Assembly (NCBI GenBank): GCA_033065855.1
Contig: JAVXUO010003027.1
Location: 157,045 to 221,044, forward strand
From: Escallonia rubra
Lineage: Eukaryota; Streptophyta; Magnoliopsida; Escalloniales; Escalloniaceae
DNA length: 64,000 nucleotides
Direction: 5' to 3'
Part shown: in pieces, positions 5,881 to 60,478 of the stretch
Layout: every line of letters starts with the position of its first letter
Position numbering within the stretch: position 1 is the stretch's first letter
Notes under the pieces: model-generated
Seen by the model: the letters and a program-made list of their open reading frames with translations, nothing else
The model's database searches: none
What the model was told of the DNA's origin: nothing
Program-made: the position numbers and the translations under genes

Positions 5881-5894
5881 GGTTACTGCCGAAG

Positions 5895-28638: not shown

Positions 28639-28674
<36 letters not shown>
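28639..28674. repeat. (TA)n tract at left end of element B
   Basis: Thirty-six bases of TA repeat directly abutting GGGAGC at 28675. Confidence 0.9.
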
Positions 28675-28677
<3 letters not shown>

Positions 28678-28769
28678 AGCCGATCCAGACCCACCGGTGG
28701 AGAAATTACCATAAATCCTGCCGTCCATGTGTACTCGTGGACAGCTCAAATGACTTTTTTTTTTCTTGA

Positions 28770-29145
28770 AAAAGTTGCAACCGCAACACTTTTATGCGGT
28801 TGTAACTTTTGACAATAATGCCCTTCAACCCCAACCGCAAGAAAGACTAGCGGTTGAGGGCCCACGGAGATAATCCCCAACCGCAACACCTTGTTGCGGT
28901 TGTGATCGTGCCTAAAACCCCCCAACCGCAACACTTTGTTGCGGTCGATATCATTCAATTTTGTTTTTCATTCCAAACGCCCCCAACTGCAACAAAGTGT
29001 TGCGGTTGGTATCATTTTTGTTGTTCTCCCCCCCCCCCCCCCCCCCGGATGTCCTTTTTCCTTCCCCCCGTAATGTCCTTTATTCATTTTTTTTCTTTCT
29101 TTCCATACCCCCCCAACCGCAACAAAGTGTTGCGGTTGGTATCAT
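28770..29145. repeat. Subterminal palindrome array of element B
   Basis: Six palindromes have arms CAACCGCAACA / TGTTGCGGTTG or close variants, at about 28779-28806, 28831-28858, 28880-28905, 28922-28947, 28984-29008 and 29114-29138. Spacing is irregular, 50-130 bases. Between the last two lie long C runs. The position relative to the terminus matches the arrays in A, C and D. Confidence 0.9.
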
Positions 29146-29338
29146 TTTTGCTGTCCTTCCCCCCCCCCGCGTGATGTCCTTCTTCCAGAAATGCCAAGTC
29201 AATGCAGCTCAAAGCTTTGCCAGACAGTCTTTTGCAATTTTTTTCTTTCATAGCCTTTGACTACACTCATCTCACTGCTCACTCACGGATCTATTTTTGT
29301 CTCTGTCTTCTTTTTTCTCTCTCCCTCACTTTTCTCTC

Positions 29339-29346
29339 TTTATAAT
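29339..29346 (+). promoter_or_regulatory. TATA-like box of the terminal-repeat promoter, element B
   Basis: TTTATAAT after CTCACTTTTCTCTC. It lies about 200 bases before the splice donor at 29541 and is equivalent to 5642-5635 (-) in element A. Confidence 0.5.
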
Positions 29347-29540
29347 CCGTTCTCCTCGACTCTTTCTCGACAGAGCCCTTTGTTCCACTTTCCATCATCT
29401 TTACCAACTCTCTTCATACTCCATATCTCACCTACATAATCTCCACGACAATACAAACAAAAAAAGTTTACGCTAGAAGAGCGGTGGATAACCGCTAGAA
29501 GATCGGTAGATTTTTCTTTAAATATATCAAGTTAAAACAA

Positions 29541-31582
29541 GTAAGTATTTTGAATTTTCTTATAATTCAATGTTAATTTCAAATTGTTCTTACCATATTT
29601 TTTCTTACCAATGGATTGTTTAAATTGTGTTATGCTTAAATTGTTCTTACCATAGTCTAAAATTCGTGTTTTTTGAGAGTTTGAAATTAGGGATTGAACT
29701 AGCGTTTATTAGCGAATATTCATTCGAAGTCCAAAAATAGTCATTGTAGACTCAAATCGAAGATAACGAAAATACAAATTGAACGAAACAAAAATCAGAT
29801 CAACCAGAGATAATATGAGCGGTTTTTTAGGGCGTCAAAATTAGGTTTATACAAATCGGGGTATTACATTTATAGATTCCAAAATAACGATTTTTTAGGG
29901 CGTCAAAATTAGGATTTTTAATTATTTTCAAAATTAGATTTTATTAGGGCTTCAAAATTGGCGGTTTATTCGGGCTTCGAAATTAGGATTTTAGGATTAC
30001 GTGTTCTCATTTAGTTTGGGAATGTAAATATTATGGACGCTGATAGCACGAAGATCGAAAAAACTTTTTAAAAGAAATAGTGGCCCGGAAGTGACACGTG
30101 GCGTGTCCTTTCTCTATAAATTCTGAAACCAATCCCTCACGAAGGACAACTTATAAATTTAAGATAAAAAATGACAACTGTCCTTTTCTTTAGAGAAAAA
30201 GCGGCTACTGTTCTTAAAAAAAAAAATGGACAGCTCGACTCGACTGTTCGTAAGGATTTTATATATTTTTTTAAAAAAGTCAAAGACCGATTGAGGGATT
30301 GGTTGAAGGAAGAAGACACTGTGTGTTCCTAAGGTGTAACACTATGTGTGTTTAATGTGAATACGAAACATAATTGTCGCTAAAGGTGAAAACTTAATTA
30401 GACAGTTTTTCACGAATTTATAAAAAATAGCTAGAGCTAGATTTTGCCAAAGTGCAAAAAAAAGACCCTAGTTATTTTTAAAAGATCTATATTAGGGACA
30501 AAGTTCAGATTTTTCCAAAGACTGGAAAGGGGTTAACTGATACGGGGAACCTTGTAACTTTGCAGTGTAATTTAAAATATCAAGCTAGTGCAATTTCGCG
30601 CGAAACTTTTATGAGAACCCTAGGATGTTGGGAAGTTCCATTTCCCAGGACTTCGGGCCATTCCGAAGTCGTTAGCTATTTTTTTGGCCGAACGGGCTTT
30701 TAAGCGCTCGATCCGGACACCGGTTCGGGATTTTTGGGCGAAAATTTTGTAAAATACTTTTTAGATCAAGAATGAATTCAGGAAGCCTAAAATAGAATTT
30801 TAAAGCACTTTTGAGATTTTCTGATGCCAGGGGGCATCTTGGAATTTGCCACCCGGAAATGGGTATTTTGGTAATTTTCCCGGTAAAGTTTTTCAAAAGA
30901 TTTTTTAGTCCAAAAATGTAATTAAAACACCTGAAAGGTTGTTTTGAAACTGATTGTAGGGCGTTAGGGTGATAATGAACCCCCGGGGGCATTTCGGTAA
31001 TTTGTCGCTCAGCGGGGGTATTTTGGTAATTGAACATTGTAAAATTTTCCGAATGACTTTTAGTTCGGGAAGGGGTGTCAGACACCCGGAAAGTTATTTT
31101 AAAGTTGTTCTGAGATGTTTGTTGGGGCGATGGCTGCCAGGGGGTGTTTTGCATAAGTAGCAGTTGGTGATGATTTTGTTAAATTTTTTTTATTGCTTTT
31201 TTATTGCTTTCCGCATAAGGACAGCATATCACGATGGCCCACCACTCATTACCCAACCGCTACTAAGTGTAGCGATTGGAATCAAAGACAATTTTTTTTT
31301 TCTTTCAGTTGTTTCGTGTGACACAGGGACATGAACCCGATAAAAATTGTTGCCCCGCCTACTGTAAATAAACCCCCAGCTACCCCACAATTACCCCACA
31401 AATGCTATTAAAAACCCTAATAAAACCCCAGTTGCCCCCACTTACCCTTTTTAGCGGTTGTAAGTTTTACCTTTTTCATTCGATTTCATTTCATTCCATT
31501 TTATTTCTGTTTCTGCCCAAAAAAAATTATTTAATTCTATGACTTGTTGAGAATGATATAATTTTTATTTTTTAGATTTCAG
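29541..31582 (+). other. Predicted leader intron of the element B transposase gene
   Basis: The donor GTAAGT at 29541 follows AAGTTAAAACAA. Acceptor candidates are AG at 31574-31575 (TTATTTTTTAG) and 31581-31582 (GATTTCAG), both just before the ATG at 31590. The donor and exon are shared with the PMD-Ulp1 gene of element A. The stretch from 29640 to 31150 is homologous (inverted) to 3900-5400. Confidence 0.55.
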
Positions 31583-31589
31583 TATAAAT

Positions 31590-33890
31590 ATGGAAGCAAT
31601 TAGAGGAAATAATTTTTGTGAAGATTCTGATCCACCTTATAAAGGTCAAGTTTTTCAAACACTGGACGGAGTTGAAGCATACTGTAGAGTATATTCGAAA
31701 ATGATAGGTTTCGGTGTTAGAATTAAGAAGACTAAAAAACGGGCGAATACAGACCAAATTTGTTCCCGACTATTTGAGTGTCATGGAAGAGCCCCGCATG
31801 TACCCCCGGTTGTTCGGATCAGTGACGAAGGGCCAACAAGCCAAAGAAAAAGGGACACATTTTCGGGTACCGGCTACAAGGCCCATGTGTATGCAGTACA
31901 CCGAAAAAATGAAAATCATTGGGTTGTGACGGGAGTGGAGTTGAGCCATAATCATCAGTTGATGACCCCTAGTAAGATTTGTCAAATTCATCAGCACCGA
32001 CAAATAAGCGCGGCACACAGACAACTGATATTTACAATGGCCGAGGCTAAAATTCCACCTTATAGAATGATGGGGGTTTTCTCAAGCCAGGTTGGAGGGG
32101 TTGACAAGTTGAGCTTAAAAAAAATAGACCTTCGAAATGAACTTCGTGCTCAGAGGAGAGAGTCTTCCTGTAAGAGTGATTCTCAAGCTACACTTGATAT
32201 CTTCAGGCGCCTTCAGAGTGAGAATTCTGGCTTTTTCTATAGTCTCCAACTGGATGACGAGAACCGCATTAGTACTATATTTTGGGCAGATGCCCGTTCT
32301 AGAGCTGCTTACCAAAATTTTGGCGATGTTGTGACGTTTGACACCACATACCGCACAAATAAGTACTCTATGCCTTTTGCTCCGTTCACTGGGGTGAACC
32401 ACCACTATCAGTCAATCTTGTTTGGCTTTGCCCTGCTTAGGGATGAGACGGAGGAGTCATTTACGTGGTTATTTGAAACGTGGCTTGAAGCAATGTATCA
32501 TATTCCTCCAAAGACTATCATCACCGACCAAGATCTGGCAATGAAAAATGCAATCGCTAAGGTCCTTCCAGATACTCACCATGGCCTGTGCACATGGCAC
32601 ATAAGCAACAAATATCCCGAACGGCTTCACAATGTATATGCAAGCCATCCGACATTCAAGAGTGACTTTAATACATGTGTGAAGAAATCGTTGACGGTAG
32701 ACGTGTTCGAGGAGAGGTGGGCCAAGTTAATGGATGACTACTATTTGCACAGTCATGAATGGTTGCAAGCGTTGTATGATATCATGACACAGTGGATCGG
32801 TGCCTACACCAAAATGTTTTTTACAGCCGGAATGATTACGACCTCCAGAAGCGAAGGTATGAATGCATTCTTTGATGGGTACGTACGCTCTTCTTCAAGT
32901 ATAACAGAGTTCGTACTAGAGATGCAGAAAGCCCTTGACAAGCAATTTTTCCTTGAGAGAGAAGCCGACGCGGCTACAGTTTACAGAGAAAGAGCCGTAG
33001 TAGTTTTTTCACCTTTGGAGGCTCATGCGGCTCAAGTCTATACCAAGGAAATGTTTAGACAGTTTCAGGAGGAACTACTAAAGTCGAATCAATATAGCAT
33101 GACAAAGTTGCACGAGCTATGCAACAGATATCTCAAGGTTTATGCTTTGACAAATGTGACGAATTTTGCCAATCCGTGCTCTTCGTCGGCTCCGAAGAAC
33201 AGAAGATATTTTACCGTAGCAGTGTGTATGGAGACCGGGTTTGTTAATTGCAACTGTCAACTGTTTGAGCATAAAGGTATACTCTGTCGACACGCTTTGA
33301 GGTATTTTAGCACCAAGAATGCTCGTGAAATCCCTCCAGAGTATATCTTGGATCGGTGGACGAAGGAAGCCAATAGAGTACACGGTCACATTCCTTACGT
33401 GCCCAATGTTTCAGTTGATTTCGAGCAATCTGAGACGCTGCGATATAATCACCTTTGTAACATCATGCACGGTTTATCATTGGATGCAGCGTCAACATTT
33501 GATGGGTACAGGTATCAAGTTGAAGCAGCCGCACGGGATAAGGCTAACCTTGCACAGTTTAGGATGGCATTACCAGAAAGACGGGACACTCCGACAACTC
33601 GGGCGACTCTAGCCGGTAGATTCAATCGAGCTTCACAGCCAGTCATTGACAGCACTAGCCTGCAAGGTGAGGAGGACGATATTTTTGATCCAATTCTGTC
33701 TCAAACAAAAGGGCGAAAACGAGCAATACGTATGAAGAGTCCGATTGAAGAATCAACGGGTCAAAAAAAATTGCGAAAGTGTGCGTTATGTAATAAAATG
33801 ACTGATCATGACAAGAGAAACCATTATAAAGTTCTAGGTATCAAACCTGGCAGTATTGTCGAGGAGGATGATGACGAGGAAGAATGTTAG
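31590..33890 (+). CDS. FAR1-type Mutator (MULE) transposase, intact, 766 aa
   Basis: An uninterrupted frame. Residues about 20-125 form a FAR1-type WRKY-GCM1 DNA-binding zinc domain (C58, C64, then HNH at 120-122). Residues about 240-345 are the MULE transposase core, with the first acidic residue in TFDTTYRTN (D251), the second in ITDQD (D313) and the CxxH of GLCTWH (C334, H337). A plausible third acidic residue is E422 in TSRSEGMN. A SWIM zinc finger follows (C554, C556, C566, H568), then PEYILDRWTK, which is typical of FAR1 proteins. The C-terminus has a CxxC/H knuckle (CALCNKMTDHDKRNH) and an acidic tail. The family cuts and joins element ends in the nucleus; plant FAR1/FHY3 are domesticated relatives. 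The location between Mutator-type terminal sequences argues for a transposon gene, not a host FAR1-related gene. It has all expected domains and no stop. The start is the first in-frame ATG after the predicted acceptor. Confidence 0.92.
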   Translation: MEAIRGNNFCEDSDPPYKGQVFQTLDGVEAYCRVYSKMIGFGVRIKKTKKRANTDQICSRLFECHGRAPHVPPVVRISDEGPTSQRKRDTFSGTGYKAHVYAVHRKNENHWVVTGVELSHNHQLMTPSKICQIHQHRQISAAHRQLIFTMAEAKIPPYRMMGVFSSQVGGVDKLSLKKIDLRNELRAQRRESSCKSDSQATLDIFRRLQSENSGFFYSLQLDDENRISTIFWADARSRAAYQNFGDVVTFDTTYRTNKYSMPFAPFTGVNHHYQSILFGFALLRDETEESFTWLFETWLEAMYHIPPKTIITDQDLAMKNAIAKVLPDTHHGLCTWHISNKYPERLHNVYASHPTFKSDFNTCVKKSLTVDVFEERWAKLMDDYYLHSHEWLQALYDIMTQWIGAYTKMFFTAGMITTSRSEGMNAFFDGYVRSSSSITEFVLEMQKALDKQFFLEREADAATVYRERAVVVFSPLEAHAAQVYTKEMFRQFQEELLKSNQYSMTKLHELCNRYLKVYALTNVTNFANPCSSSAPKNRRYFTVAVCMETGFVNCNCQLFEHKGILCRHALRYFSTKNAREIPPEYILDRWTKEANRVHGHIPYVPNVSVDFEQSETLRYNHLCNIMHGLSLDAASTFDGYRYQVEAAARDKANLAQFRMALPERRDTPTTRATLAGRFNRASQPVIDSTSLQGEEDDIFDPILSQTKGRKRAIRMKSPIEESTGQKKLRKCALCNKMTDHDKRNHYKVLGIKPGSIVEEDDDEEEC

Positions 33891-33964
33891 GGTTAATGTT
33901 TCAGTTGTTTAAATTGAACTTTTATAGTGTTTAAATTTGTGATTAGGTTTGTGGAATCTTTAAT

Positions 33965-34250
33965 TTGTCACTTTTTTTTTCGCTCATTGCACCTTATGCA
34001 CGCTAGTTAGCACATTTATATGAATTTTGGCGAAAATGGAGACAAATTGTTTTTGGGTTTTCCTACGACGCACCTATTCGCGCACACTTTAGCGCCCAAT
34101 TCTTAGCTTGCGAAAAATGTTGTAATTTTTTTTGTCACTTTTTTTTTGCTCATTGCACCTTAGGCACGCTAGTTAGCCCATTTCTATGAATTTCGGCAAA
34201 AATGGAGACAAATTTTTTTTTTGGGTTTCCTACGACGCGCCAATTCGCAC
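33965..34250. repeat. 166-bp tandem array of element B (two copies)
   Basis: CACGCTAGTTAGC occurs near 33999 and 34165. It is the same unit as at 240-845, with about 80-85% similarity by eye. The second copy is cut near 34250, where similarity to element A ends. Confidence 0.85.
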
Positions 34251-34312
34251 ATAATGTGCCTGTGCTTAACTAATGAAAGGCCCATAATGTGCCTGTGCTT
34301 AACTAATAAAAG
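34249..34312. repeat. Short direct duplication at the broken right edge of element B
   Basis: Two adjacent copies of a roughly 33-base unit containing CATAATGTGCCTGTGCTTAA, exactly at the point where element B homology ends. It looks like a repair or slippage product. Confidence 0.7.
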
Positions 34313-34359
34313 TATTGTTTCTGTATTGCATCCTAATCATTACTGCCATAGTGTTTATA

Positions 34360-35096
34360 CAGGGGCGGATTCAGGATTATGCGTCGAGGGGAACCAAAAG
34401 TTATATGTAAAAACTATAGTTGCTAGTGTTATTAAATAAATGTAATATGACCACGACCACGTTTGGTGCAAGAAGCGACATCAAATAAACTTGAATCATT
34501 TTTAGTCTTCAATTGCATGAGATATGCAAAAAGAATAATATGTTTATGTGTATTAATTCCAGCATCACATCTATATTGAAGTTATATACTTGTGTGCACT
34601 TATACTTGCACAATAGTTTAAAAATACTTTGATTAAATGCTACTCACATATAGCATTTGTGAGTATATCAGTTGTACGTATATGAAAAATGTATATTTAA
34701 ATTGAGTAGCGAGAAAAAATATTAGTCGAACTTTGAGTTTGTCTACCAAAACAAAAAACAATAACCAATATTTTCTTGTGAATTGGAATTAAAACAACAA
34801 TATATAAGAAATTAGATATCCACTCCAAACTTAAACTCTCTCAAACTCCGAATGATTTTTAGTGGCACTTGTTAATAACACGCTTTGAATCTTTAAAAAC
34901 AACAATAAGTTGAAAGTGTTCAAATGCTAAAATATATATTAGGAATTTTTAACTTTTTAATTTTAATTCTTTAACCAAATGTCATGTTGGTAACATTAAA
35001 AAATTTTAGTGACATATATTAGGAGGGGGTAGGGGGTAGGGGGGGTGGCCATGGTCCCCCCCCCCCCCCCCAGCCCTGACATTAGTTCTGCCTCGG
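34360..35096 (+). mobile_element. Small non-autonomous hAT-type element with 8-bp duplication
   Basis: The left end is CAGGGGCGGA; the right end read on - is CCGAGGCAGA (7 of 10 match). The flanking 8-bp direct repeat TGTTTATA lies at 34352-34359 and 35097-35104. Length 737 bp; no protein frame. Near the right end are a G run and a C run (35026-35071). The 8-bp duplication fits the hAT superfamily. Confidence 0.8.
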
Positions 35097-35104
35097 TGTT
35101 TATA

Positions 35105-35729
35105 TGAGATGTAACTTTCTCTAACACGAGCGCTATGACCGGACAGTCTTATTAATAGTCATGTACTTTAAAATTTTTGAACCGCATATTAAAATTTATT
35201 GTATAATCGATATTTTTATGGTTATTCCATCAGAAATAGTCACTTTTTTTTTTCACAAAATGCGTGAACTTCCTCTTTTGAAAATAAAGTAACCCTTATG
35301 TTGAAACATCAATGAGCAATCTCCTTGTGCACATATCTAATTCTGGTTTTGTGAGGAGCATAAGTTATAAGTTTATTTAGTGCGCGGCAAAAAGAAAAAA
35401 GGAAAAAAAGTAGACTCAACCGATGAAAATATGCAAAGAATATATTGAGATAAATTGGTTATTTCAGAGAAATTATTGGTCTAGATTTTCTTTATATCAT
35501 ATGGTTTATAAACGTTAACCACCACAACTAATTAAAAAATGATGAGTTGGTGCCTCTTAGAGGCAAATAAGATCCACCAATTAAAGCATACATAGAATAG
35601 TATGTTATTGCATGAGCCAATTATAAAAAAATTTAAAAGTTTAATCAACATGACTAAATATGGTAGCTCAGGTAGCTCATAATTTCTTAGTAAATAAATT
35701 GTTTAACAAAATGTAAACAAGATTTAACA
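35105..35729. other. AT-rich non-coding stretch
   Basis: No frame, RNA or repeat recognised. Confidence 0.5.
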
Positions 35730-35738
35730 AATTATTTA

Positions 35739-37257
35739 GGGCTAATTACAGTAGTGTCCCTGAGGTTAGGGTATAATTACAGTCAATGACATTAAGTTTC
35801 AAAATGTAACATACCGTGACCAAAAACTTTAAAAATGTATAAGCCGTATCCATCCGTCAGGGTTCCGTTAAAAAATTATTATTTTTTGGCTGATGTCATT
35901 CATACGTATTTTTTAAATGCCAATACTACCCTTATATCATATATCTACATAACATTGTATAAAGATTACAACCCTGATTTAAAAAATTAGGGTTTTAACC
36001 CTAATTCCCAAAATTAGGGTTTTAACCCTAATTCCCAAAATTAGGGTTTCAAATCTACTTCTTTCTCTTTTCAAATTAAGGTTTTAACCCTAAATTTTAA
36101 ATTAGGGTATTTTCGAACCCTTATTTTTTCACTTTTTCTTATTTTCAATCCTTAGGGTTTGAAAATTATGGTTTCGAAACCTAATTTGAATTAGGGTTTC
36201 ATAAATTAGGGCTTCAAAACCCTAATTTTGAAATTTTAATTTCTAATTCTATCTCTCTTCAAATTTTTTGTTTCTTAATATGGATTTTAATTTCCTTAAA
36301 ATACCTTTGTTTTTAAAAAATATGAAAAACCCTAATTCTCATCCCCTCCCCCCACCCCCAGCTCTACCCTAATTTTCATTCTACCTAAATTCTAACTCAC
36401 GCCGCCACCGCCGCCGTCGCTGCCGCCCCCTCCCCCTAGCCATGCCGTCGTTGCCCCATCTCAGCCCCACCCACCCCGCCCTCCCCTCTATCACGCACCA
36501 CCTCAATCATTCACGGTAGCCCCGTTTACCTCAGCACCGCCGCCACAATGGCCCGCCGCAACCAAATCAGATCCAGGCACCCCCCGTAACCGCCACCATC
36601 ACCTTCTGTCACCCCTGCCTTTGAAATCTACTCAGTCGTGACGTAGTCGGCCTCACCACAATCCCTAACAGATCCCGGTCTCACCTCTCTCGCCTTCGTA
36701 CACCATCGACGACTGATCAACCAGCATAATTGTATCCGCGACCCTCCATTATCTCTGCAACCCACCACCATACCCACGGCCTTCCACCACCAACAGATAT
36801 GTTTCTCTTTTTTTTTTTGTAATTATTTAACATAAATCTTTTTTTTGTTGTGGGTTAGTACAGTGTATTGATTGGTGGTGGCGTTGTGTATAGCTTGCTC
36901 CAGCGTAAGGGGCACGACGGTGGTGTTGGGGTGGGTCACGGTAGTGGTGCATGGTAGTTGGTCATGGTTTGTGAGGGTATCGTTGGGGTAAGCAGGGTCA
37001 AGGGTGTACATGACTGGCTGACTGATGTGGGAAGAAAGAGAGGAGAAAGAAATATAAGAGAGAATTTTACCTTTTAAAAGTAAAGAGTGGCATGTTAAGA
37101 AATTACATTTTAAGTCATGAGCAATACGGTCATTTCGCTAAAACCGTTAGGTATTTTTGTATTCCATTAGGTCAAATGATATAAGTGTCTATTTTCCAAA
37201 TTTATGGACACGCGTGTAATTTCACCCTAACCTCAGGGACATTGGTGTAATTAGCCC
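35739..37257. mobile_element. Non-autonomous Mutator-type element E1 with 9-bp duplication
   Basis: Ends GGGCTAATTACA ... TGTAATTAGCCC with inverted subterminal similarity (CCTGAGGTTAGGGT). The 9-bp target duplication AATTATTTA is perfect (35730-35738 and 37258-37266). The interior has repeated TTAGGGTTTTAACCCTAA hairpins (35985-36060) and a GC-rich CCG/CCC tract (36390-36800) foreign in composition, as in Pack-MULEs that carry gene pieces. No transposase. Same family as 50034-51130. Confidence 0.85.
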
Positions 37258-37266
37258 AATTATTTA

Positions 37267-40200
37267 TTTACATGATCATGAAGTTCGATTTAATTATAGT
37301 TATACTTAGATTGAAAATCTAAGTTGGCGACTAACTTAATTACAAGATAAATATAATACGGAGTAATTACTTTTTAGATTTTATATGCATTTTTATCTTT
37401 TAGATATTTAGTTTTTTTCTTTTCATATACTCCTTTCATCCCTAATTAATTGATCGTGTTTAACTTGCACTCTTATTTAGGATATGAGTCATATATTATG
37501 AGTTTTCAATTCTATCCCTATAGAGAAAGAGAAGGAAGGAAGAAATTGGTTAATGAGTTGGTGGATGATTAAATGTGAAGAGAAATATAGAATAAAAAGC
37601 ATAAGAAGGGTAAACATGAAAAAACATCTAAAGAATCTTTCTTAATTTGAAAAGTGATTAATTTGTTTTTGGCAAAGCACAAAAAGAAAGTATGACCCAT
37701 TTTTTTAGGATAGAAGGAGTAAGAGTCTAGGAGTATAAAAGATATAATTAGGTCATAATATGTTGGTATGTTGCTAAAATAGAATTAATGTGCTTAAAGG
37801 TTTAATTACTCCCAACAAAACAACACCGTAGAAAAAGATTGCCAAAATAGAATTTGAGAATGACCACAAAATCTTATTCAAAACAAGTGCACACCTCTTA
37901 TTATATCTAAACACTGACCTGGACTAATTCGACCAACTATTAAACTGGACTACTTAAAGTGGGCTACCTATACTAGACTCTTAACTGGATTGGACCTTGC
38001 TAATTAAATTAAGCATACCATTGAGTGGCAAACAAAAAAAAATTGAGAAAATTACAAGAAGGGACCAACAAAGAAAACCTGGAGAAGAGCGCAAACATAT
38101 TCGTATCCAGGGGAAATTTGAACAAGAAACATTAATAACATAGTCAGAGATAAGGCTTATGCATGGTTACTGATTGGCCATTGCGATTATTTTTCTTCAA
38201 AAGAAATGTAAACAAGCATTTGACTTCCCTTCACAAAACATAACCTCAAGGAGGACTTTGTATATGGGATGTTATGTAGGCGAAGGTTGGGCTAAGAAAT
38301 GAATGGTAAATAAGATTCAAGACCCAAATAAACCCAAAGCCGATTGCAAGAGACTATTAGACCAAGCCTAGATGGTGGCTAAGCCGCCTACCATATCCTC
38401 GTCGGAGAATCAGGTTTGACGTAGTTCAGAAGTTACTAGTCATGCAGCATATCTATCCTTTGTACTTGATTAGTGTAAACCTTAACCATGATTTTTCCTT
38501 TGGCTTCTATCATATCTTTTTTCTTTTTTTGTGGTGGGGTGGGGTGGGGGGGGGGATGATCAAAATCTAATTCACTATATTCAATATCAGCACTTTTTTT
38601 TCTTCATTATATTCATGCACTTCCCGGCGTATTTGTGACATAGGCACAGCCAACAATACTTTTCCATCCCGTGGTTAGGACAATAGGATTTCAGAAGGAA
38701 AGACTAAACTGTTTAGGCCTAACACGCTAACAAGTTGGAAAAAGCAAGCACAGGGTAATCACGAGAATATATTTTGGCCAACCATTGCCTACCATCCTTG
38801 GGAATGCTTATTTTCAGGAAGAATCACGCACAATTTACATTTATTTAAGGGGTTTTTCATTTCTCTAAGCCCATTTTTTTATGACTTATCATTAACCGCA
38901 TTAATTAATTCATGAAATTTTAAATTCAAAAATAAAGAGTAGCCAATTCATCGGCCATGTCATCAATCACAAAGAGTTTACAGAGGAATCTGAAAAAATG
39001 TATTCTCAAAGATTATCTAGAAATAGTTAAATGAAAATTCTGGCTCATAATCAAACTCAGCATCATGACAATTTTCAACCATCCTAATAAACAATCAGCT
39101 CATGCACCATCTTCACTCCCGATCTCGCCCTACTATTAAAAAAGCTCAATCTGCTGCACGGTCTTCCTTTCCTTATCAAGCATAGTGTTAGTTCCACTTT
39201 TTATAACTTCAGGTTCTGAGCACTCCATCCAAATCGTTGTATTTCTTCATGGGGCATCTCGTCCTCACAATCGAGAAAATCCTCATTCTTGTTGATCTCA
39301 GGCTCGGGCTTCTGTGTGTGTGTGTGCGTGGACATTGTGTGCGTGCCTACAATGTAACAATATGGCACTCTGTGCGCATGTGTGTACCACGTGCTTTGGT
39401 ACGTATACACTGTGTGTTTTTGTGAGAGGACAGTGTACTATCTGTATTTTGGAACAAGGGGTAGCATGTGAATGCAATGGGATTAGGATAGGAGAACCAG
39501 ATACCTTTACACTACAAATAAACTTTTTACCTTTGATTCTTGAAATTCTAGATACGAATGAGGAGGAATACAACCAGGATATAAAGTAGCTCCAGATTTT
39601 TTTAGAGATGCAGATAAGTACTCCAACCATATTCCCGACTTTTACGCTATTTCAATTTTTAAGTGTATTTACATGTACGGATCAACTGGATGTTTAAAGT
39701 ATTTTAAGAATTTTTATTGCGATCGTTTTAAACTGCCTAACAAAAAAAAAACTGGAATTGCCATGGATTGCTTACTAGACATTTATAAGTTTGGTTTACA
39801 TAAACCATATGGAAGTTTTCATTGTTTGTTGTGCCCTATATCTAACGGGAGAAAGTTAGATTTTGGACCCTTGTCAAGGGGTTATGTACGTTGAACTAAT
39901 GCGCATTACTGTTATAAATGGTCACCCCTGATTTCACAGTGACGTTTATCCCAAGGTGGGATTATGGGCCCACGTTAGTGGGGCTATGAATGTTGACCGC
40001 AACAACTCTAAGAAAAATTGTTGAACTGTAACAATCGTGAGGCAACGATCTTCAATATAAGTTCTTTTATGCCTTAGGATTGTTCTTTTACTCGTACAGT
40101 GTTATGCTTCTGTACATATTCTCCTTCTGAGCTGCTCATCAATTTTGAGATGAAACCCACGACATGTTAATGAAATTTGAAGACTATTTTGGCTTAGGAT

Positions 40201-41280: not shown

Positions 41281-42510
41281 CGAACAACATGTAGCCGCAA
41301 CGGTGATGCAACCCCCTAACGAAGTTGCAGGCTCTCCCATTGAGAAACTTGAGAAGTTAGACCCGCCCTCTTTTACCAATAGCACTGATCTTTTCAAAGC
41401 TGAAACATGGCTATCAAACTTGGAAGACATATTTGAGGTATTGGGATGCTCTTAAAGGTAGAAAGTAGCTTTAGCCGCATTCATATTGAAGGATGAAGCT
41501 AACCGTGGTGGAAGATATTCAAACGGGTGAGGGCCAAAGAAGTTACAAATATGGACTAGGAGGGTTTCCAAAGGATGTTTCTTGACAAGTATTATCCCTG
41601 GACTGTTAGGGAACAAATGGAGATTAAGTTCATACAATTGACTCAAGATGTCGCACTACTAAGGAATACGAGACTGTATATACTCAGGTGTCATGCTATG
41701 TCTCTCACTTGGTGGACACTAAAGCGAAGAAGGCAAGGAAGTTTGAGAATGATTTGAGGCTTGGCGTCAGTTCTCGTATCTAAATCTCCAAACTGTGATT
41801 GGGGACTAATGCTGAAGTCATGGATAGAGCCTTAATAGCTGAAAATGATAACCAAAAGTTATTTAGGATTCGAGACCAACATAAAAAGAGGACAAGAAAT
41901 AATCAATTCCAAGGAAGAAATATGTCAAATGACACTTTCAAGCGTTCAAAACCTCAAGAAGTTAGCAGAAGGGTGCAAACCCAAAAAGGGAACGAGCAAA
42001 ACCAAGGATCTAGGAGTTGGGTGACACCTCATAAAGGGAATAATCAAAGGCAATATATTCAGCCCTAGAACGAGTGGACAAATTGGTCCCCAACCATGTT
42101 TCATATGCAAGCGGTTCCATCCTGACCAAGCATGTGGAAGGACATCTTTTGCATGTGGACAAGATGGACATCTCGCTATGAATTGCACTAGGTCTAGACA
42201 ACATAACCAACCGAGAAATAATGTTGCAAAACCTAGGGCAACGACAAGAATGTTTGCAATGACCTCGCGGGACGCGCATGCATCCAATTCAGTGGTTGTA
42301 TGTACACTCTCTATTTCTTCCACTTTTGCAAAAGTATTATTTGATTTCGATGTTATGCATTCTTTTGCATCGCGTGCCTTTATTAACCAGTTAGGCAAGT
42401 GCTTAGAACCTTTAAACTTTCAGCTTTACATATCCACCCTACTTGGGAATGTCATGATTGCGGATCAAGTAGTTAAAGGTTGCATGGTCAATATTAACGG
42501 TAAGGAATAG
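41281..42510 (+). pseudogene. Chromovirus gag-protease remnant
   Basis: Homology blocks in several frames. EKLDPPSFTNSTDLFKAETW and a FLDKYYPWTVREQMEIKF block match gag. A charged linker leads to the CCHC knuckle CGQDGHLAMNC (about 42155-42187). The aspartic protease block is KVLFDFDVMHSF near 42326, where a family member would have D(S/T)GA, so the catalytic loop is lost. Gag forms the particle and protease matures it; neither is functional here. Confidence 0.75.
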
Positions 42511-42849
42511 GCCGTAAACCTCATTTGACTAGATACATTAGAGTTGATGTCACACTAGAGATGGATTGGTTGACAGCATTTCATGCTCTTTGAATTGCTT
42601 CCATAAGAGTGTAACCTTTAGCATCCCTGGTCAAAACATGTTGACCTTTCATGGGTCTAGTATCATATCTCCGCCGCCTATGATTTATGTCTTGCATGCT
42701 AATCAACAATGTAGGAAGGGCTGTCATGGATATTTAGCTCATGTGGTAGAAACCCAACAGAAAGATTTAAGACTAGCGGACATTCCTTTGGTGAAGGAAT
42801 TTTGATGTATTACCGGAGGACTTGCTACAAATGCTATAAGATAACGAAG

Positions 42850-50024: not shown

Positions 50025-50033
50025 TAGTTTTTA

Positions 50034-51596: not shown

Positions 51597-51777
51597 AACA
51601 GAGTTTTGAGACCTAATGTTTCACTCATGATATCCGTCAGGTGAGTCAATATTGCATGATTGGAGACCTATTATTTACGGGGAGGTATTCCAAAACAATC
51701 AAGGGTAACAGACCTATTATAACAGAGTTTTGAGACCTATTATTTATGGGGAGGTATTCCAAAACAATCAAGGGTAA
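51597..51777. repeat. Local duplication at the left edge of element E3
   Basis: CCTATTATTTA(C/T)GGGGAGG and the following AAAACAATCAAGGGTAA occur at about 51666-51707 and again at 51737-51777. The repeated block includes the first bases (GGGTAA) of E3. Confidence 0.75.
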
Positions 51778-53179
51778 ATTATACTAAACACCCCTGAAAT
51801 TTTACGTAATTACATTCCACTACCGCTATCTTTAAAAATTACACTCAGCTCAAAAAGTAACTTTTTCTCTTACAGTGTTAATGATGCAGTGCAAAAAAGA
51901 CATCAATGCCCCTCAGACTGTTTTCTTGGAATTTTGGAGGGAAAACTTGTTTTTGGGAATTTTTGGAGGGAAAACTTGTTTTTGGGAATTATTGGAGGGA
52001 ATACCCTAATTCAAATTGAATGTCCTAATTGAACCCTAATTTAACGCCCTAATTAACTTAGACACATAATTGAACCCTAAATTGAAGTAATTAAACCCTA
52101 AATTGAATGCCCTAGTCGAATTGAACCCTAAATTAAACTAATTGGACCCTAATTGAATCCTAAATTGAATGTCCAAATTCAACCGAACCCTAAATTGAAC
52201 TTATTGAACCCCCTAATTGAACTCTAAATTGAATGTCCTAATTCAACCGAACCCTAAATTGAAGTAATTGAACCCTAAATTGAAGTAATAAAATCCTAAT
52301 TAAACTCTAAATTGAATGCATTAATCGAATCGAACCTTAAATTAAACTAATTGAACCCCTAATTGAACCCTAAATCGAATGCCCTAATCCAACCGAACCC
52401 TAAATTGAACTTATTGAACCCCCTAATTGAACCCTAAATTGAATGCCCCAATTTAACCGACCCCTAAATTGAACTAATTGAACCAAAAATTAAAGTAATT
52501 GAACCCTGATTAAACCCTAAATTGAATGCCCTAAATTAAACTAATTGAACCCCTAATTGAACCCTAAATTGAATGCCATAATCCAATCGAACCCTAAATT
52601 GAACTAATTGAACCCCATAATTGAACTCTAAATTGAATGTCATAATCCAATCAAACCCTAAATTGAACCCTAAATTGAATGCCCCAATTCAACCGAACCC
52701 TAAATAGAACTAATAGAACCCCCTAATTAAACCCTAAATTGAAGTAATTGAACCCTAAATTAAATGCCCTAATCGAATCGTACCCTAAATTAAACTAATT
52801 GAACCCCTAATTGAACCCTAAATTGAATGCATTAATCTAACCGAACCCTAAATTGAACTAATTGAACCCTGAAATGAGCTAATTGAACCCTAAATTGGCT
52901 AAATTAAACCTCATAATTCACTTAAAGTTTGTGGAGTTGACTGAAATTTTGAAAAACCACACAAGTGAGTAAAAGCCAAAAGGGGGGGTATTTTGGGTAT
53001 GAAAATTTCATAAAGTAATGTGTCAGGGAATCTTTTCACGGAGTTGGGCCTGCCGTTAAATGTGTGTAGTTGTGTGTAATGTGGGTACAAACTTCGGGGG
53101 GGTCGGAGTGCAATTTTTAAAGATAGCGATAGAGAGTATAATTACGTAAAATTTCAGAAGTGTTTAGTGTAATTTACAC
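51772..53179. mobile_element. Element E3: inverted repeats of about 75 bp around a minisatellite
   Basis: The left end is GGGTAAATTATACTAAACAC; the right end read on - contains GTAAATTACACTAAACAC. Similarity continues through GAAATTTTACGTAATTA and CGCTATCTTTAAAAATT, about 75 bases in all. The flanks AACAATCAA (51763-51771) and GGCAATCAA (53180-53188) agree in 7 of 9, a decayed 9-bp duplication. The terminus resembles E1/E2 (GGG(C/T)AAATTA). The interior is mostly minisatellite. Confidence 0.7.
52010..52900. repeat. CCCTAAATTGAA minisatellite inside E3
   Basis: About 890 bases of irregular repeats of AACCCTAAATTGAA(C/T) alternating with CTAATTGAACCC and TGCCCTAATCCAACCGA. A higher-order spacing of about 60-75 bases is visible. 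No coding frame. Confidence 0.85.
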
Positions 53180-53189
53180 GGCAATCAAT

Positions 53190-56100
53190 GCCCAACACCC
53201 CTATTTGCTTCAAAAGATAATATCACCAACTAAAGAAATGAATAATGAAGAAATCCAGAAAGTTCCCACTCAAACTGGAGCAGAGAAACAAGAGGACAAG
53301 GTGCGTGGGTGAGGTGGGACAGCGACTCCACATCCCCCAACACAAGAAATCAATGCCAAGGGGACACCCCCACCATACCAGGGAACTGATCAGTCGCCAT
53401 TTCAAAGCAAAAATGAGAGAAAGAGAGACCACCCATTTACCAAAACAAAGAAAAAAAGCAGTGGATGCCGTGGAGTCAAACATCATAAGTGTAGTGCAAG
53501 TGCAGAGTGATATATGTCCTTGTTAGTGGGTGGCGTGGGGTGTCTGCCAGTGCAAGCCTGATGGACATTGCATTTCTAGTGTTTGAATCCCCCCGTTGCA
53601 CCACGTTTAGTGATCATTCTTGTGTGCTCTCTGCCTTTTCCGCGTGCTACTGTTTGTCGGCCCGAAAGCTAATTTTTTGAGACCGACTCATTCGCACTCT
53701 CTTTTCCAGATGAACGTCTTTCTCCACACTTGTAGTTTCAATCAATCCACACTAGTTGAAGAAAATGTTAGTAGAATTTTCAAAGTGGCGCTAATTTCGC
53801 TTTTGGATGCTTGTATCGAAGAGTATTGTATCGTTTCAACGTCAACTTTTGACAGTAAAATCGAATATTATGTGACAGAGTATTTTTTGTGAGCTTTGAG
53901 AGGGAGAAGAAAACAAGAAGATGCAGTTAGTTATTCACGTGATAACACAAAAGATCTGTTTGATTGTGTTGTTACGGAATCACGTTGAAATGGGCAGCGG
54001 AACAAGAAAAATGAAGAGAAAAAATAAGAGCGAACAAAATAAGTTTTAACGTTGTTCACCAATAGGACTACATCCACGAAAAATGACCAGTTTGCAACTC
54101 ATCGATGATCATTAAATGACAGTTTATAACGTAAAACCATAACTCCCAAGTTGGTGTCATTATCCCTCTCCCGTGTTACTTTCCGAGACAAAAGTAAAGC
54201 ATAACAAAGATCCAAGAACACAAAACTACATAATAATTACAAAAGTAGAAAAAGTTTTCAACACCCGGCCCACGTACTTTCACCTGTTAGCGATGAGGGG
54301 GTCCGTTTGATATAATTAGCGTACATTACTTCTCGCTGATAATATGAAAGACTGAAATCAAACTCCATATAAAACTTGGTTTATAAGATGTCCGCTACAC
54401 CTCGCATAATATTAGCATTTTTAGTGGTATGTGACAGCAACTTTTATTTTTTGGGTAAAAAATGAACGCAACTTTTAATATTTAAGGTGCACGATCTGAC
54501 CGTCTGAGGTGACTTTTGTGGCGCATGACACCCAGTAGATTCCTGCATGATCTCTTATGCATTGTGTTTATGCTTCAATTAACCATGCACTAGCAATATA
54601 TATGCTGCTACTTGGCATATTGATCATTGTTTTTTGCGTATGTGGTCTTGATAATTTATGAAGGTCAGTTGCATGCCACGAAATGCAGCTGACAGGTGAG
54701 GCAGAGACCTCACCTCATATTAACTCGCTTCTTTTTTATATGTGCCGCCGGCTTTTTGTTCATGTTGATCGTGGAAAGAGTGTTTTCTTGGTGTGGCCCG
54801 TGCACTCGCATATCTGCGTGTGGAGCTGGCATTTTGTGCATCATCGGTGATTTGTCGCATACAAAAGGGTGCTCCGTTTAGCCGAATCGAACTTTGGTTG
54901 TGCCTCCATCCTTCTCGTTGCAATCGGGCAATAGAGGGAGCAATAATAAGGGATTTGTTCGGATGGGAATGATCTTTTTTTCGTTCTTAGCTATTTTTGT
55001 AACGCTTCACCCAAAAAGAAAGAGCACCACTAATTAAGAACGTCAATTGTTGAACTTAAAAGGAAGTACTTATTTTTATATTTTTTATGCTTATTCACAC
55101 CTTATCTTTGAACAAATGATCCTTGCTTTCAAGTTAGTGAGAACACATAGGGCAGAGTCAATGCCAAACTTACAAATAACGGTGGAGTCAAAAGGTGTCC
55201 AATTTAGTGTAAAACAAATGAATAACTCCCATCTCCATTGGGTCTACGGCCGCAGAGACTGATGAGATTGATAAACCAGCCAAGAATGTCCTGGTCTGCA
55301 CACGGTTATAACACGCAACGGTGTGGGTGTGCCTACCCTTTTCCGCGTGCTACCATCCTATCTGTTGGCGCAAAAGAATTTCCCAGCTTGTGCCTTCCCC
55401 CAAACTCTGAATCATGCCTGCTTTATTACGTACACGCCATTTGTTAATCCATTTGAACAGTACTTTGTTTGGTCGTGGGTTAGAACATAGTTGCTTCTTG
55501 GCGTTTGCATGCAGTTGTTTTTGTTTTTTCCTTTTTCCCTCCGTGAAGATATATTGTCTTCTTCTTGTTTGCGGCTCTTGCGCGTTATGTGAAAGTGAAA
55601 CTATGTGCTGCATCTGTGTTTTTTGTAAGTTGTTGAGATAATCTACCTTTCTTGGTGAACTGTAGATATTTAGGCAAGAGTTTTCTGGAAACTTTTACTA
55701 ACTAGGCCACTTGACAAGACCACAGTGTGCAATGGAGAGATTACGTGACTTTGCTATCAGTTGAATCATTATGCACAATGTTAACGACGGAACACAAATT
55801 TAATTGGGATATATACTACAACCATTGTAGTTAACACGTAGGTATCCATTTTCAGTTGCACAAATGTATTTATAAAAACTCTTGGTAAGTGTTTTTTTGA
55901 GACTGAGTCTTTATATATGATGCGTTCCAATATTAGAGTTTTTTAAATAGAAAAATAAAATTCATATTTAATAACTTCCAATTATTGAAGTGTTAATAAT
56001 AAAAGAGACCTACCACGTACGTAATACGTAGTAGGTTCGGGAACATACTATATGAAGTACCCTTAAAATTCTGACAAATGATCATTGTTGTTACGCGCCT

Positions 56101-56930
56101 CTAACACACTTGATCTTTATTTGCATATACGAAAACGGCTACTAGAGTCGAGTTCTTCGTCCACGAACCAAACCTTAGAGCTTGGTGATACTCTAGAGAG
56201 AGTACAACAGGAGGATGGATTTTTTATTTGTAGGGAAGACTTTTGTCTTCTGACTTATTATTTTCTCTTGGGATATCTCTAACATTTATATAGTATTAGT
56301 ATTAGAGACTGATTTTATCTCAACCACTTAGAAAATAACGTCCGTATTTATCTCAAACACTTAAGAGATAAATATCATCTAATTAACTATAATAATCCTG
56401 ACTAACAAATAAACATAATCTGTTAGTGCGTGGATAATCGGTCCACCGACCCAATTTATTAACAGTTCTCACTCGCCCAAAATAAATCCTGCAGTCTCTC
56501 CTTATCGATATGTTGTTCACTCATCTCCTCATACAGAAAATGAAATGTGCGACCTACAAGAAAGGAAGAATATTGTATTAAGTTATCACAAAACTAACAT
56601 AATGCATCACTCTATAAAATCTCGTATGTACGCTAGATAGTTCAACTACACCAGATTAAATACTCTTAAATCCATCATTGAGCAGTGTTTAACCTCTCAT
56701 GTGTTATGTATTCATGACTCATATCGAAACGAAAATCGACAAAGTCGCCCAGGCTATGAATCACATAACATGGTGTAATACTGATATTTCTTCTCAAAGC
56801 CCTCATGTTATTCCAATTAGATCCAAGCGCTTTCCTAAACATGCCCCGCGAGACCGCATCGTCCATGATTTAAGGGTACATGCTAAAGTAGCGACATTAA
56901 GTATCCTCTTCGTGACATAGTCTATGGTAA
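53190..56930. other. Non-coding stretch, possible LTR fragments
   Basis: No gene recognised; the open frames (90 codons or less) match nothing I know. TGTTACGGAATCACGTTG at about 53969 with GTTCACCAATAGGACTACAT (54054) resembles Copia LTR sequence. TTTTCCGCGTGCTAC occurs twice (53636, 55339) in similar context, which suggests an old dispersed repeat. Confidence 0.35.
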
Positions 56931-56937
56931 AAAGGGT

Positions 56938-56965
56938 ATTATATATATATATATATATATATATA
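56938..56965. repeat. (TA)n tract at left end of element C
   Basis: About 28 bases of AT repeat directly before GGGAGC at 56966. Confidence 0.9.
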
Positions 56966-59478
56966 GGGAGCTGATCCGTTGAGAGCGTTAGCAAAATAAG
57001 AAAAGTTGCAAGCGCGATCTGGCCGTCCACGCGCGATCTGTGGACGGCCCAGATCTTTTTTTATGTTTTTTTAAGATCGTCCGCTATATTATGTATTGGA
57101 CGATTTTTTGACAAAAATACCCTCCAACTTAAAAACATCCCATCCGCTACATTATGTAACGGGCTATTTTCTGACATTTTTTTCTCTTTCTCTCTCCTCT
57201 CTCTCATTATTACTCTGACTTTTTCTCTCTCTCTCTCTCTCTTTTCTCTCATCCGCTACATTATGTAGCAGATTAGTTTTCTAACATTTTTTTCTCTCTC
57301 TCCCCTTTCTCTCATTAATGGTCTAACTTTTTTCCCCTCTCTCTCTCTGTCATTTCTCTTCTTTCTGAGTTGTGTCTTTCTCTCACCACTTTTTTCTTCT
57401 CTCTCGTCCTCCTCTCCCCTCATTTCCTCTTCTTTCAGAATTGAAGTTGACAATGGGTACACTATGTGAGCGATTCATGGATGATAAGAATTCTGTTGTT
57501 GCAAATCCCTCTGATACGCAGAGCGATCTGGGGCACATCGATGACACTAGAACTCGAATTGCCCAAATGCGAGATCAATACATGAAGATGTTGTTTCTCC
57601 TCAAAAAGCTTATCTTGGTTCTTGATTTGGATCACACCCTACTTCACTCCATTGTGAGAACTGAAGAGGAGAACCTAGCGAGCCAAACAGAGACAGACGG
57701 CCTCTACGCAGCAGAGTCCATCGGCGTGCTAATTTTCTGGGGCCCGGTGTTCGTGCCTTTCTGAAAGAAACAAGCAGCATGTTCGAGCTTTACATATTCA
57801 CAAAGGCTTGTCGTCCCTATGCACTGGAGATGGCAAATTTACTTGACCCTGAAGGTGTGTACTTCGATCCAACTAGAGTGTTCTCACGAGAGCATTGTGA
57901 CCAGGAAGCTTTAAAGCACCTTGATTGGGTGCCAGGGAGATAAAGTGGCATTATGATTCTTGATGATACAGAAAGGGTTTGGGGCAGATTCAAGGAGAAT
58001 TTGGTACCTATAAAGAAAGAAGAGAAATGACAGAGAGAGAGAAAGAGAGAGGGGAAAAAAGTGCATTAATGAGAGAAAAGGGAGAGAGAGAGAGAGAGAG
58101 AGAAAAATGTTAGAAAACTAATCCGCTACATAATGTAGCGGATGGGCTATTTTTAAGTTGGAGGGTATTTTTGTCAAAAAATCATCCGCTACATAATATA
58201 GCGGACGGACTTAAAAAAAAGATATAGGCGATCCAGATCCTTTTTTTTTACGTTTTTTAAAGTACGTCCGCTACATAATATAGAAATACCATCCAGCTCC
58301 ATCCGTTACATTATGTAGCGGACGAGTAAGCAGTGTCTTCTGGCTTTTTTTTCTCTTTCTCTCTCCTTTCTCTCATTAAATTTCTTACAGATTCTCTCTC
58401 TCCTTTATCTTGCCGCTACATTATGTAGCGGACTAATTTTCTGGCTTTTTTGTCTTTCTCTCTCCTTTTCCTCATTTAATGTTCTGACATTCTCTCATTT
58501 CTCTCTCCTCTCTCTCGTCATTTTTTTCTCTTTCTCTCTCCTTTCTCTAATTTACTTCATGACTCTCTCTCTCTCTCTTAGATATACAAAAACCAGTTGG
58601 CAAAACTTGATCAAGAAGGGAAACTGAAAGGTGGCAGGATTTATGCAGATATAGAAGAAAGAAGACAAAAACCCAGTTGTACTTCCCATGAACTCTCCTT
58701 TTTCAAGTTGCCTCCTTAATAGTCTTGCATTTCCATGTTTAACTTCCCATGAACTCTCCTTTTTCAAGCTGCCTCCTTGATAGTCTTGCATTTTCATGTC
58801 TGGGCCCTTCCACTTCTTGACCCTATTTCTTCTTTTTAACTACTCTGTTGAGAAGGATAGAAACAAGAAAAAAGTTATACCCATATGTATTTCAAAGATA
58901 GCTTGTGGGTCAGCCGTACTACATGTATGATGAGAGTAGCTATTTATCTAAAATGTAGCCATATTCTGGTTATGGGTTTTACTTTTGAGGTAGGAGAGAG
59001 AAAGAGAAAAAAGTACAACTTGGTTTTTGTATATCTGAGAGAGAGAGTCACGACATAAATTAGAGAAAGGAGAGAGAAAGAGAAAAATATGATGAGAGAG
59101 AGGAGAGAGAAATGAGAGAATATCAGAACATTAAATGAGGAAAAGGAGAGAGAAATAGCAAAAAGCCAGAAAATTAGTCCGCTACATAATGTAGCGGCAA
59201 GATAAATGAGAGAGAGAATCTGCCAGAAATTTAATGAAAGAAAAGAGAGAGAAAGAGAAAAAAAAAAGCCAGAAGACACTACCTACTCGTCCGCTACATA
59301 ATGTAGCGGATGGAGGTGGAGGGTATTTTTGTCAAAAGATCGTCCGCTATATTATGTAGCGGACGTACTTTAAAAAATGTAAAAAAAAAAGATCTGGACC
59401 GTCCACAGATCGCATGTGGACGGCCAGATCGCGCTTGCAACTTTTCCTATTTTGCTAGCGCTCTCAACGGATCAGCTC

Positions 59479-59480
<2 letters not shown>
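56966..59480. mobile_element. Non-autonomous element C with captured FCP1-like fragment
   Basis: Both ends read GGGAGCTGATCC inward and both abut (AT)n. Terminal inverted similarity extends for several hundred bases. About eleven palindromes of the type CCGCTACATTATGTAGCGG lie near 57077, 57150, 57251, 58125, 58188, 58302, 58413, 59180, 59291 and 59343. 58120-58235 is an inverted copy of the left subterminal region, and 58250-58600 repeats (inverted) the right one, so C may be two elements fused near 58237. The interior carries an FCP1-like phosphatase fragment and CT-rich filler. Confidence 0.8.
57453..58030 (+). pseudogene. Captured FCP1-like CTD-phosphatase fragment in element C
   Basis: An acceptor-like TTCTTTCAG precedes ATG at 57453. 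The frame runs to KKLILVLDLDHTLLHS (57600-57650), the DxDxT catalytic motif of FCP1/CPL phosphatases, which dephosphorylate the RNA polymerase II C-terminal domain. It then shifts: another frame continues with GPGVRAFLKETSSMFELYIF, TKACRPYALEMANLLDP, VFSREHCDQEALKHLDW and, after a TAA, SGIMILDDTERVW. These are the conserved blocks after the active site in plant CPL3/CPL4-type proteins. The fragment lacks introns within these blocks and ends near ENLVPIKKEEK. It lies between terminal repeats of a transposon, so it is most likely a transduplicated, decayed copy. Confidence 0.8.

Positions 59481-59522
<42 letters not shown>
59481..59522. repeat. (AT)n tract shared by elements C and D
   Basis: Forty-two bases of pure AT repeat; element C ends CTCCC on its left and element D begins GGGAGC on its right. 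Confidence 0.95.
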
Positions 59523-59524
<2 letters not shown>

Positions 59525-60424
59525 GAGCTGATCCGTTGAGAGCGTGGGCAAAATAGGAGAAGTTGCAAGCGCGATCTGACCGTCCATCCCGAAAGATGGA
59601 CGTGCCAGATCGCGCCTTTTTCGAAAGCTGTCAGTCGTCCGCCATACAGTATGGCGGACGGGTTTTTTTACCAAATTGCCCCTCCGCGCCTGTCCGCTAA
59701 ACTGTATGGCGGAGGACATTAAAGTCTTGATGGGAGACAGCCAAAAAGACGTCCGCGATACTATATGGCGGACGTCCCCTAGGCTGACACATGTCCTTAG
59801 GCTGACACCTTTTTGCCCGGCTTCCTTCTGCTTGACTGTCCGCTATATAGTTTAGCGAACGTACATAGGGCCGAAAAAAAACTAAGTGTTGGTGAGGCTT
59901 CCTTCTCCTTGACTGTCCGCCATATAGTATAACGGACGTACATAGGGCCGAAAAAAAAATTTAAGTGTTGGCTTCGGCTTCCTTCTGCTTGACTGTCCGC
60001 TATATAGTATAGCGGACGTACATAGGGCCAAAAAAAAAACTAAGTGTTGGGGAGGCTTCCTTCTGCTTGACTGTCCGCTATATAGTATAGCAGACGTACA
60101 TAGGGCCGAAAAAAAAAAACTTTAAGTGTTGGGGCAAAAAGGTGTCAGCCTAAGGACAGGTGTCAGCCTAGGGGACGTCCGCCATACAGTATCGCGGACG
60201 TCTTTTTGGCTGTCTCCCATCAGGACTTTAATGTCCTCCGCCATACAGTTTAGCGGACAGGCGCGGAGGGGCAATTTGGTAAAAAAACCCGTCCGCCATA
60301 CTGTATGGCGGACGACTGACAGCTTTCGAAAAAGGCGCGATCTGGCACGTCCATCTTTCGGGATGGACGGTCAGATTATATTTGCAACTTCTCCTATTTT
60401 GCCCACGCTCTCAACGGATCAGCT

Positions 60425-60427
<3 letters not shown>
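59523..60427. mobile_element. Foldback element D, 905 bp, with about 298-bp near-perfect inverted repeats
   Basis: The ends are GGGAGCTGATCC on both strands, each abutting (AT)n. Arms 59523-59820 and 60131-60427 are inverted copies with only a handful of differences (for example ATATAATC in place of GCGCGATC near 60376). Each arm contains palindromes of the type CCGCCATACAGTATGGCGG. The centre (about 59819-60130) is four tandem units of about 65-75 bases, each with CCGCTATATAGTATAGCGG or a variant, then GTACATAGGGCC and an A run. No protein frame. A transcript would fold into a long hairpin. Confidence 0.9.

Positions 60428-60478
<51 letters not shown>
60428..60478. repeat. (TA)n tract at right end of element D
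   Basis: About 51 bases of TA repeat directly after CTCCC. Confidence 0.95.

Follow-up and report, generated by a model that had tools for sequence, protein, structure and literature searches.

How do transposable elements come to lie with their ends directly against TA microsatellites? The question is raised by a 64,000-nucleotide stretch of Escallonia rubra DNA (assembly GCA_033065855.1, contig JAVXUO010003027.1, positions 157,045 to 221,044 of the forward strand), hereafter the window, in which four elements, A to D, end against (TA)n. These are Mutator-like elements (MULEs): a MULE transposase domain, long terminal inverted repeats (TIRs) and a 9-bp target duplication are all present in the group. 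Very probably, a transposase of the FAR1-MULE-SWIM type inserts its own and related elements into pre-existing (TA)n by cut-and-paste with a 9-bp duplication. The observations behind this reading are a shared terminus, its association with TA, the phase relation between the two sides of an element, 9-bp duplications that can be read at three sites, TA sites with no element in them and long copies with two genes. Names such as L031, J17 and C85 are our own working handles.

A common terminus beside TA tracts

The 12-bp terminus GGGAGCYGATCC has 3,854 exact copies (1,891 + 1,963) in the genome to which the window belongs (566,129,122 bases, 3,222 contigs), versus 24 (14 + 10) for a reversed control. 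The flanks of the first 100 copies listed were all taken. Perfect TA alternation directly adjoins the terminus for at least 8 bp in 75 of them and for at least 14 bp in 58 (median 19); by eye, 16 of the remaining 25 are within or next to TA/TG tracts that have interruptions, one is doubtful and eight lie outside. The background in the window, a count that takes in the tracts at element termini as well, is 0.32% (205 of 63,988 positions preceded by at least 8 bp of TA alternation). Genome-wide, the 8-bp T-phase flank ATATATAT directly precedes 1,710 of the 3,854 exact termini (control, 0), a figure for this phase that leaves out the A-phase flank TATATATA; because the T-phase flank stands at 42 of the first 100, that sample looks representative. 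Among stretches of the B lineage, the terminus pattern was matched in 3 of 16, all beside TA runs (60, 9 and 32 bp), the other 13 being uninformative. The family is very abundant, with thousands of termini, mostly in TA tracts. A first-pass annotation of the window had described such a group of elements with a common terminus in TA microsatellites, and the description holds for the genome: no more than 25 of the 100 have less than 8 bp of perfect TA beside them, so the copies do not lie mostly outside TA repeats.

The same annotation held that random insertion would not produce this association, and the numbers agree. A model of random insertion, with copies in TA tracts surviving selectively, could appeal to microsatellites as tolerant sites, which is a general expectation and is argued for MuTAnT (PMC4486113). 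However, ordinary intergenic DNA is no less tolerant, yet TA runs, with a background of 0.32%, hold 75 of 100 termini, and L031, L035, B, L109 and L113 all struck a single TA site within one host repeat. We regard survival of this kind as a very improbable explanation.

Within the window, exact copies of GGGAGCYGATCC stand at 28675 (+, B left), 56966 (+, C left), 59480 (-, C right), 59523 (+, D left) and 60427 (-, D right), and the right end of A, at 6171, is GGGGGGCGATCC, which differs from GGGAGCYGATCC by two mismatches; B, C and D thus share a terminus of which A has a close variant, as annotated. All six termini adjoin (TA)n, again as annotated, and the tally becomes seven of seven with the left end of A, which lies outside the window in L051, at about window coordinate -5319, beside a 21-bp TA tract. 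The TIR of A is at least 1.17 kb long (95.9% match across 1,174 aligned columns), with TA at both ends; A lies outside the interval 28639..60478 to which the annotation had assigned the group. No right end of B was found within the window, at whose end the contig stops. The elements and their tracts are as follows.

1..6171, - strand: element A, right part; whole element about 11.5 kb, about -5319 to 6171; right terminus GGGGGGCGATCC
6172..6195: TA tract at the right end of A, 24 bp
28639..28674: TA tract at the left end of B, 36 bp, inside a host repeat that L031 and L035 occupy elsewhere
28675..33890, + strand: element B, with left terminus GGGAGCCGATCC and transposase
56940..56965: TA tract at the left end of C, 26 bp
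56966..59480: element C, 2,515 bp, non-autonomous
59481..59522: TA tract common to C and D, 42 bp
59523..60427: element D, 905 bp, non-autonomous
60428..60478: TA tract at the right end of D, 51 bp

Other sequences of this kind were seen. Beyond the right tract of D, the DNA at window position 60479 starts CGATCCAAGTGG, resembling a terminus without its first bases. Another end that looks like a terminus but differs from the one above (inward GGGAATAACGAATAT or GGGGAAAGCGAATGTGAG, then TAGCCTTAGGCAACTT) is also found against TA in L036, L037, L050 and L066, and perhaps belongs to another TA-targeting family. Elements of 135–156 bp with unlike ends (GGGAGCTGATCC versus GGGTCGTGATCC or GGATCGTGATCC) occur at L043:1768-1923, L043:6717-6851 and L046:6543-6687.

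Phase, target duplications and empty sites

In the mechanism that we propose, the transposase of this superfamily-typical MULE family would act by ordinary cut-and-paste, making a staggered cut with duplication of 9 bp, and its preferred targets would be (TA)n microsatellites that are already present. It would insert its own elements and, in trans, non-autonomous copies related to them. In a pure TA tract the duplication would be unreadable, but because 9 is odd it would leave a phase mark, an A beside one end and a T beside the other, which later slippage by whole TA units would preserve. Repeated hits on one tract would yield arrays of elements with only TA between them, such as C-TA-D. The transposase itself presumably recognises the tract, and the duplication inside pure tracts is presumably 9 bp long (not 7 or 11).

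The phase can be read from the outward bases beside the two ends of an element: an odd-length duplication in an alternating tract makes them differ and an even-length one makes them equal, a relation that whole-unit slippage leaves intact. We do not claim this test as unpublished. Under a strict rule (nearest, mutual convergent exact ends with at most 2 mismatches in 40), 22 pairs gave 17 opposite, one same and four without a call; among these four, a 9-bp duplication can be read at C17, and the last few letters of C68 and of two C85 pairs show them to be opposite. Three extra pairs from other contigs, three short elements chosen by hand, and C and D themselves are all opposite. Taking the called strict-rule pairs and the added ones together, 25 of 26 are opposite (chance 4e-7); the figure is 25 of 28 (1.4e-5) with A and C170 included, and 25 of 29 (5e-5) with a likely mispair, C56:53667-58750, whose ‘same’ call was set aside since its left end has a fitting partner in a different right end 156 bp away. 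Also opposite, and left out of these counts, are L048 and, with mismatches in their second ends, L015 and L030. Left ends start in either phase (11 A, 11 T), which disfavours an invariant base brought along by the element. Where target duplications can be read, they are exactly 9 bp at three sites: J17 (ATTAAACAA), L049 (TATATGATT) and L047 (TATGTATAT), the last in an imperfect TA/TG tract.

These results bear on a model in which excised circles, with microsatellite filler between the element ends, recombine homologously with microsatellites of the genome and leave no target duplication. In its favour, arrays of uninterrupted elements are seen here, C and D on one tract and more in L033, L043, L050 and C85, but phase would then be set by filler length, and roughly even numbers would be expected unless the filler were always odd. 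Since 25 of 28 pairs are opposite and 9-bp duplications can be read at three sites, cut-and-paste is favoured over circle recombination, which we consider improbable.

Two junctions are of separate interest. At L050:560-640, a 32-bp copy of the terminus is followed by TA and then by a full element, forming a doubled end, and at C85:60779-60808 (L052) six bases, TATATA, shorter than a 9-bp duplication, separate two 7-kb elements.

Empty sites were sought among copies of the repeat that forms the right flank of L031 (40 scored matches from 747 candidates, 20 of the 40 examined) and are therefore paralogous host-repeat copies, not alleles. A TA run of 11–77 bp (median 18.5) with no terminus is present in 18 of the 20, and 10 of these 18 share, by eye, the A-rich left flank of L031 ending AAAC. 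The other two (L109 and L113) have an A/B-like terminus left of the tract, and B, L031 and L035 are inserted at the same point of related repeats. Empty tracts in 18 of 20 copies, together with repeated occupation, indicate that tracts can be present with no element in them and that they receive insertions repeatedly. The annotation had named as a contrary outcome empty sites with no TA tract and a conventional 9-bp duplication; instead the 18 empty copies hold TA, and 9 bp is readable where the tract allows.

It may be, conversely, that the element makes its tract, by insertion into a short TA run followed by expansion through repair slippage. In L006, a relative of the L035 site, an AT-only stretch includes about 9 bp of TA alternation, compared with the far longer flanks of L035; tandem paralogues of the left flank of L036 have 7–11 bp of TA; and a single TA tract of at least 20 bp in the window (9268–9301) is without a terminus. 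The empty tracts of 11–77 bp in 18 of 20 host-repeat copies argue the other way, as long tracts exist without the element. Because the empty tracts are shorter than many occupied flanks, and those of L006 and the L036 paralogues are about 7–11 bp, growth after insertion is also possible. We consider tract-making by the element a real possibility, if short of likely.

Two candidate empty sites were rejected: C1301, as that of L031, since about 200 bp of flank are missing from the match too, so that it is not clean, and L006, whose right side is alignable only in part. The C1301 paralogue of the L031 site (C1301:94400-95400, L097), from which those flanking bases are absent along with element and tract, perhaps records a deletion at excision.

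Several points count against cut-and-paste insertion into pre-existing tracts. In the single assembly, no transposition was seen. Eight of the 100 termini are clearly outside TA-type tracts. The phase is the same at both sides of A, of C170, whose TIRs differ at 13 of 40 positions, and of C83:23112-24321, where the left end is doubled; a first, cruder pairing of 25 gave 19 opposite, two same and four without a call. Phase demonstrates an odd length, not 9 specifically. The examined empty copies have the shorter tracts described above, and the Ulp1 part of the second gene shows no clear purifying selection.

Genes of the long copies and the possible mobilization of C and D

The long copies carry two genes, one for the transposase and one for a protein with a plant mobile domain (PMD) and an Ulp1 protease part. 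In the window they are represented by the following.

31557..33890, + strand: transposase of B, an open frame of 777 amino acids with FAR1, MULE and SWIM domains (Pfam)
1075..3717, - strand: PMD-Ulp1 gene of A, in several open frames (PMD at 2905–3717 and 2348–2908, Peptidase_C48 at 1075–2148)
1..129, + strand: 3' end of the transposase gene of A; the remainder is in L051, with the frame split near -1635

The transposase of B matches PF10551 (E 4.3e-33), PF03101 (1.1e-9) and PF04434 (4e-5), and the MULE domain PF10551 is also found in L034 (E 7e-33) and L044 (E 3.8e-33). That of A is 84% identical to that of B over 766 amino acids. At least 58 B-type relatives in the genome, B itself included, were scored at 85–100%, 35 of the 58 having no stop; among named proteins, the best relatives come from carrot and celery (about 40–47%). 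The PMD frames of A match PF10536 (E 8.6e-27 and 8.9e-17), and its Peptidase_C48 matches PF02902 with an E value of 0.00037, just above the cut-off.

Both genes, in convergent orientation, are present in all eight examined copies of at least 8 kb (L034, L042, L044, J17, J45, L094, L095 and A, where J17 is L032 plus L011 and J45 is L038 plus L029; a longer pair, C67:13669-25176, was left out), which bears out the annotated combination of a FAR1-type transposase with a PMD-Ulp1 gene in large copies. The annotation had also asked whether autonomous copies always have both genes; long copies do so in these eight cases but not in L096 (7.06 kb), which has the transposase and the Ulp1 end with no PMD, or in L035 (5.3 kb), which has the transposase only. 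Autonomous copies sitting in TA are L034, L042, L044, J45, L094 and L095; J17 is one outside TA. In the L034-type lineage, the transposase frame is open across 782–783 amino acids in seven of nine copies, the exceptions being L042 and J45. TIRs are about 250 bp long at 91–98% in five of six long copies compared, and 1.45 kb in L035.

The ratio of nonsynonymous to synonymous change (dN/dS) of the transposase is 0.17–0.33 in 14 of 15 pairs and 0.82 in the remaining pair, which has few changes. For the second gene, it is 0.06–0.55 (PMDb), 0.29–4.22 (PMDa), 0.42–0.89 (Ulp1) and 0.80–2.73 or undefined (Ulp1c); PMDb is the one part that argues for constraint on this gene. The Ulp1 of J17 retains HW, D and DCG, the catalytic residues expected of such a protease.

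Element C holds a captured piece of a NIF-type (CTD-phosphatase-like) gene at 57369–57943 (PF03031, E 4.5e-13) and is therefore a Pack-MULE; no gene was found in D. The TIRs of C and D, over about 190 bp, are 70–79% identical to those of the L034/J45/J17 lineage, the nearest among the autonomous copies, versus 51–61% for B and 45–51% for A. The annotation's suggestion that A and B mobilise C and D therefore looks weak, and we set those two aside; judged by TIR similarity, the L034/J45/J17 lineage would be the better candidate.

Elsewhere in the window, an open frame at 22105–22935 (+) has a Transposase-associated domain (PF13963, E 1.2e-12), a domain usual in CACTA elements; a piece of a retrotransposon at 42025–42510 (+) encodes RVP_2, an aspartyl protease domain of retroviral type; long degenerate telomere-like CCCTAA arrays occupy 20709–21410 and 52024–52897; and 13245–13358 is a perfect 114-bp (AC)57 tract.

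Comparison with known TA-targeting elements

TA targeting by Mutator-like elements is already published (MuTAnT, SaTars, MiMs, Micron and TAFT), and the family described here is a large further case. Rice Micron, the precedent named by the annotation, is not the sole one, as TA targeting together with an autonomous Mutator partner is published for Medicago, guayule, rice and carrot. The pineapple Ac-mMITEs (PMC8449440) and carrot MiMs (PMC8227079) resemble the present family in high copy number in TA tracts and in clustering; those of pineapple have 9/10-bp duplications outside TA. An autonomous partner was found for three carrot MiM families (PMC8227079), whereas none was found in pineapple (PMC8449440). 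The carrot paper leaves unsettled whether autonomous Mutators drive MiMs and how TA tracts are reached (PMC8227079). For maize TAFT, as relayed by papers on TA-associated MULEs, expansion of the tract after insertion was proposed.

The SaTars of guayule and rice are likewise MULEs in microsatellites, with TA-joined arrays, autonomous MULEs with similar TIRs and empty TA sites between rice subspecies (PMC5907723). For them 10-bp duplications are reported and, as an alternative mechanism, circle recombination is proposed (PMC5907723), whereas the phase here favours an odd duplication and cut-and-paste. MULEs bearing Ulp1 are known from melon and rice, grapevine and Arabidopsis (KI-MULEs) (PMC2528002, PMC13317346), including Jittery-like MULEs of melon (PMC2528002). 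They share with the present elements the Ulp1 protease gene, and the accessible portions of these papers do not mention TA targeting; unlike in those described there, Ulp1 in the present elements is joined to a plant mobile domain or lies next to one. A literature search combining Ulp1, MULE and plant mobile domain found no paper.

Two-sided phase is a simple count, usable in this or other genomes to tell insertion models apart, and the many open transposase frames of the family offer a candidate transposase for dinucleotide-repeat target preference. A broader generalization is tentative, and we would rather doubt than expect it: targeting would be a property of the FAR1-type transposase (or its PMD-Ulp1 companion), TA-flanked MULEs at large, the guayule and rice SaTars included, would use staggered cut-and-paste, and their ‘missing’ duplications would survive as a phase mark readable in any genome, settling the dispute over mechanism.

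The closest parallel is MuTAnT of Medicago truncatula, with its autonomous partner AutoMuTAnT (PMC4486113). Both systems are Mutator-like with G-rich ends, target TA, have 9-bp duplications (in MuTAnT, in non-TA copies) and empty TA sites, and include an autonomous element, which in Medicago has a Jittery-like transposase (PMC4486113). The MuTAnT terminus mask GGGGTTTGCTAGAACA is not matched here, the termini of this family being GGGAGCYGATCC and its variants. MuTAnT has 218 copies and a 4.9-kb autonomous element with one open reading frame (PMC4486113), whereas the present family has thousands of termini and elements of 8–11 kb with an added PMD-Ulp1 gene.

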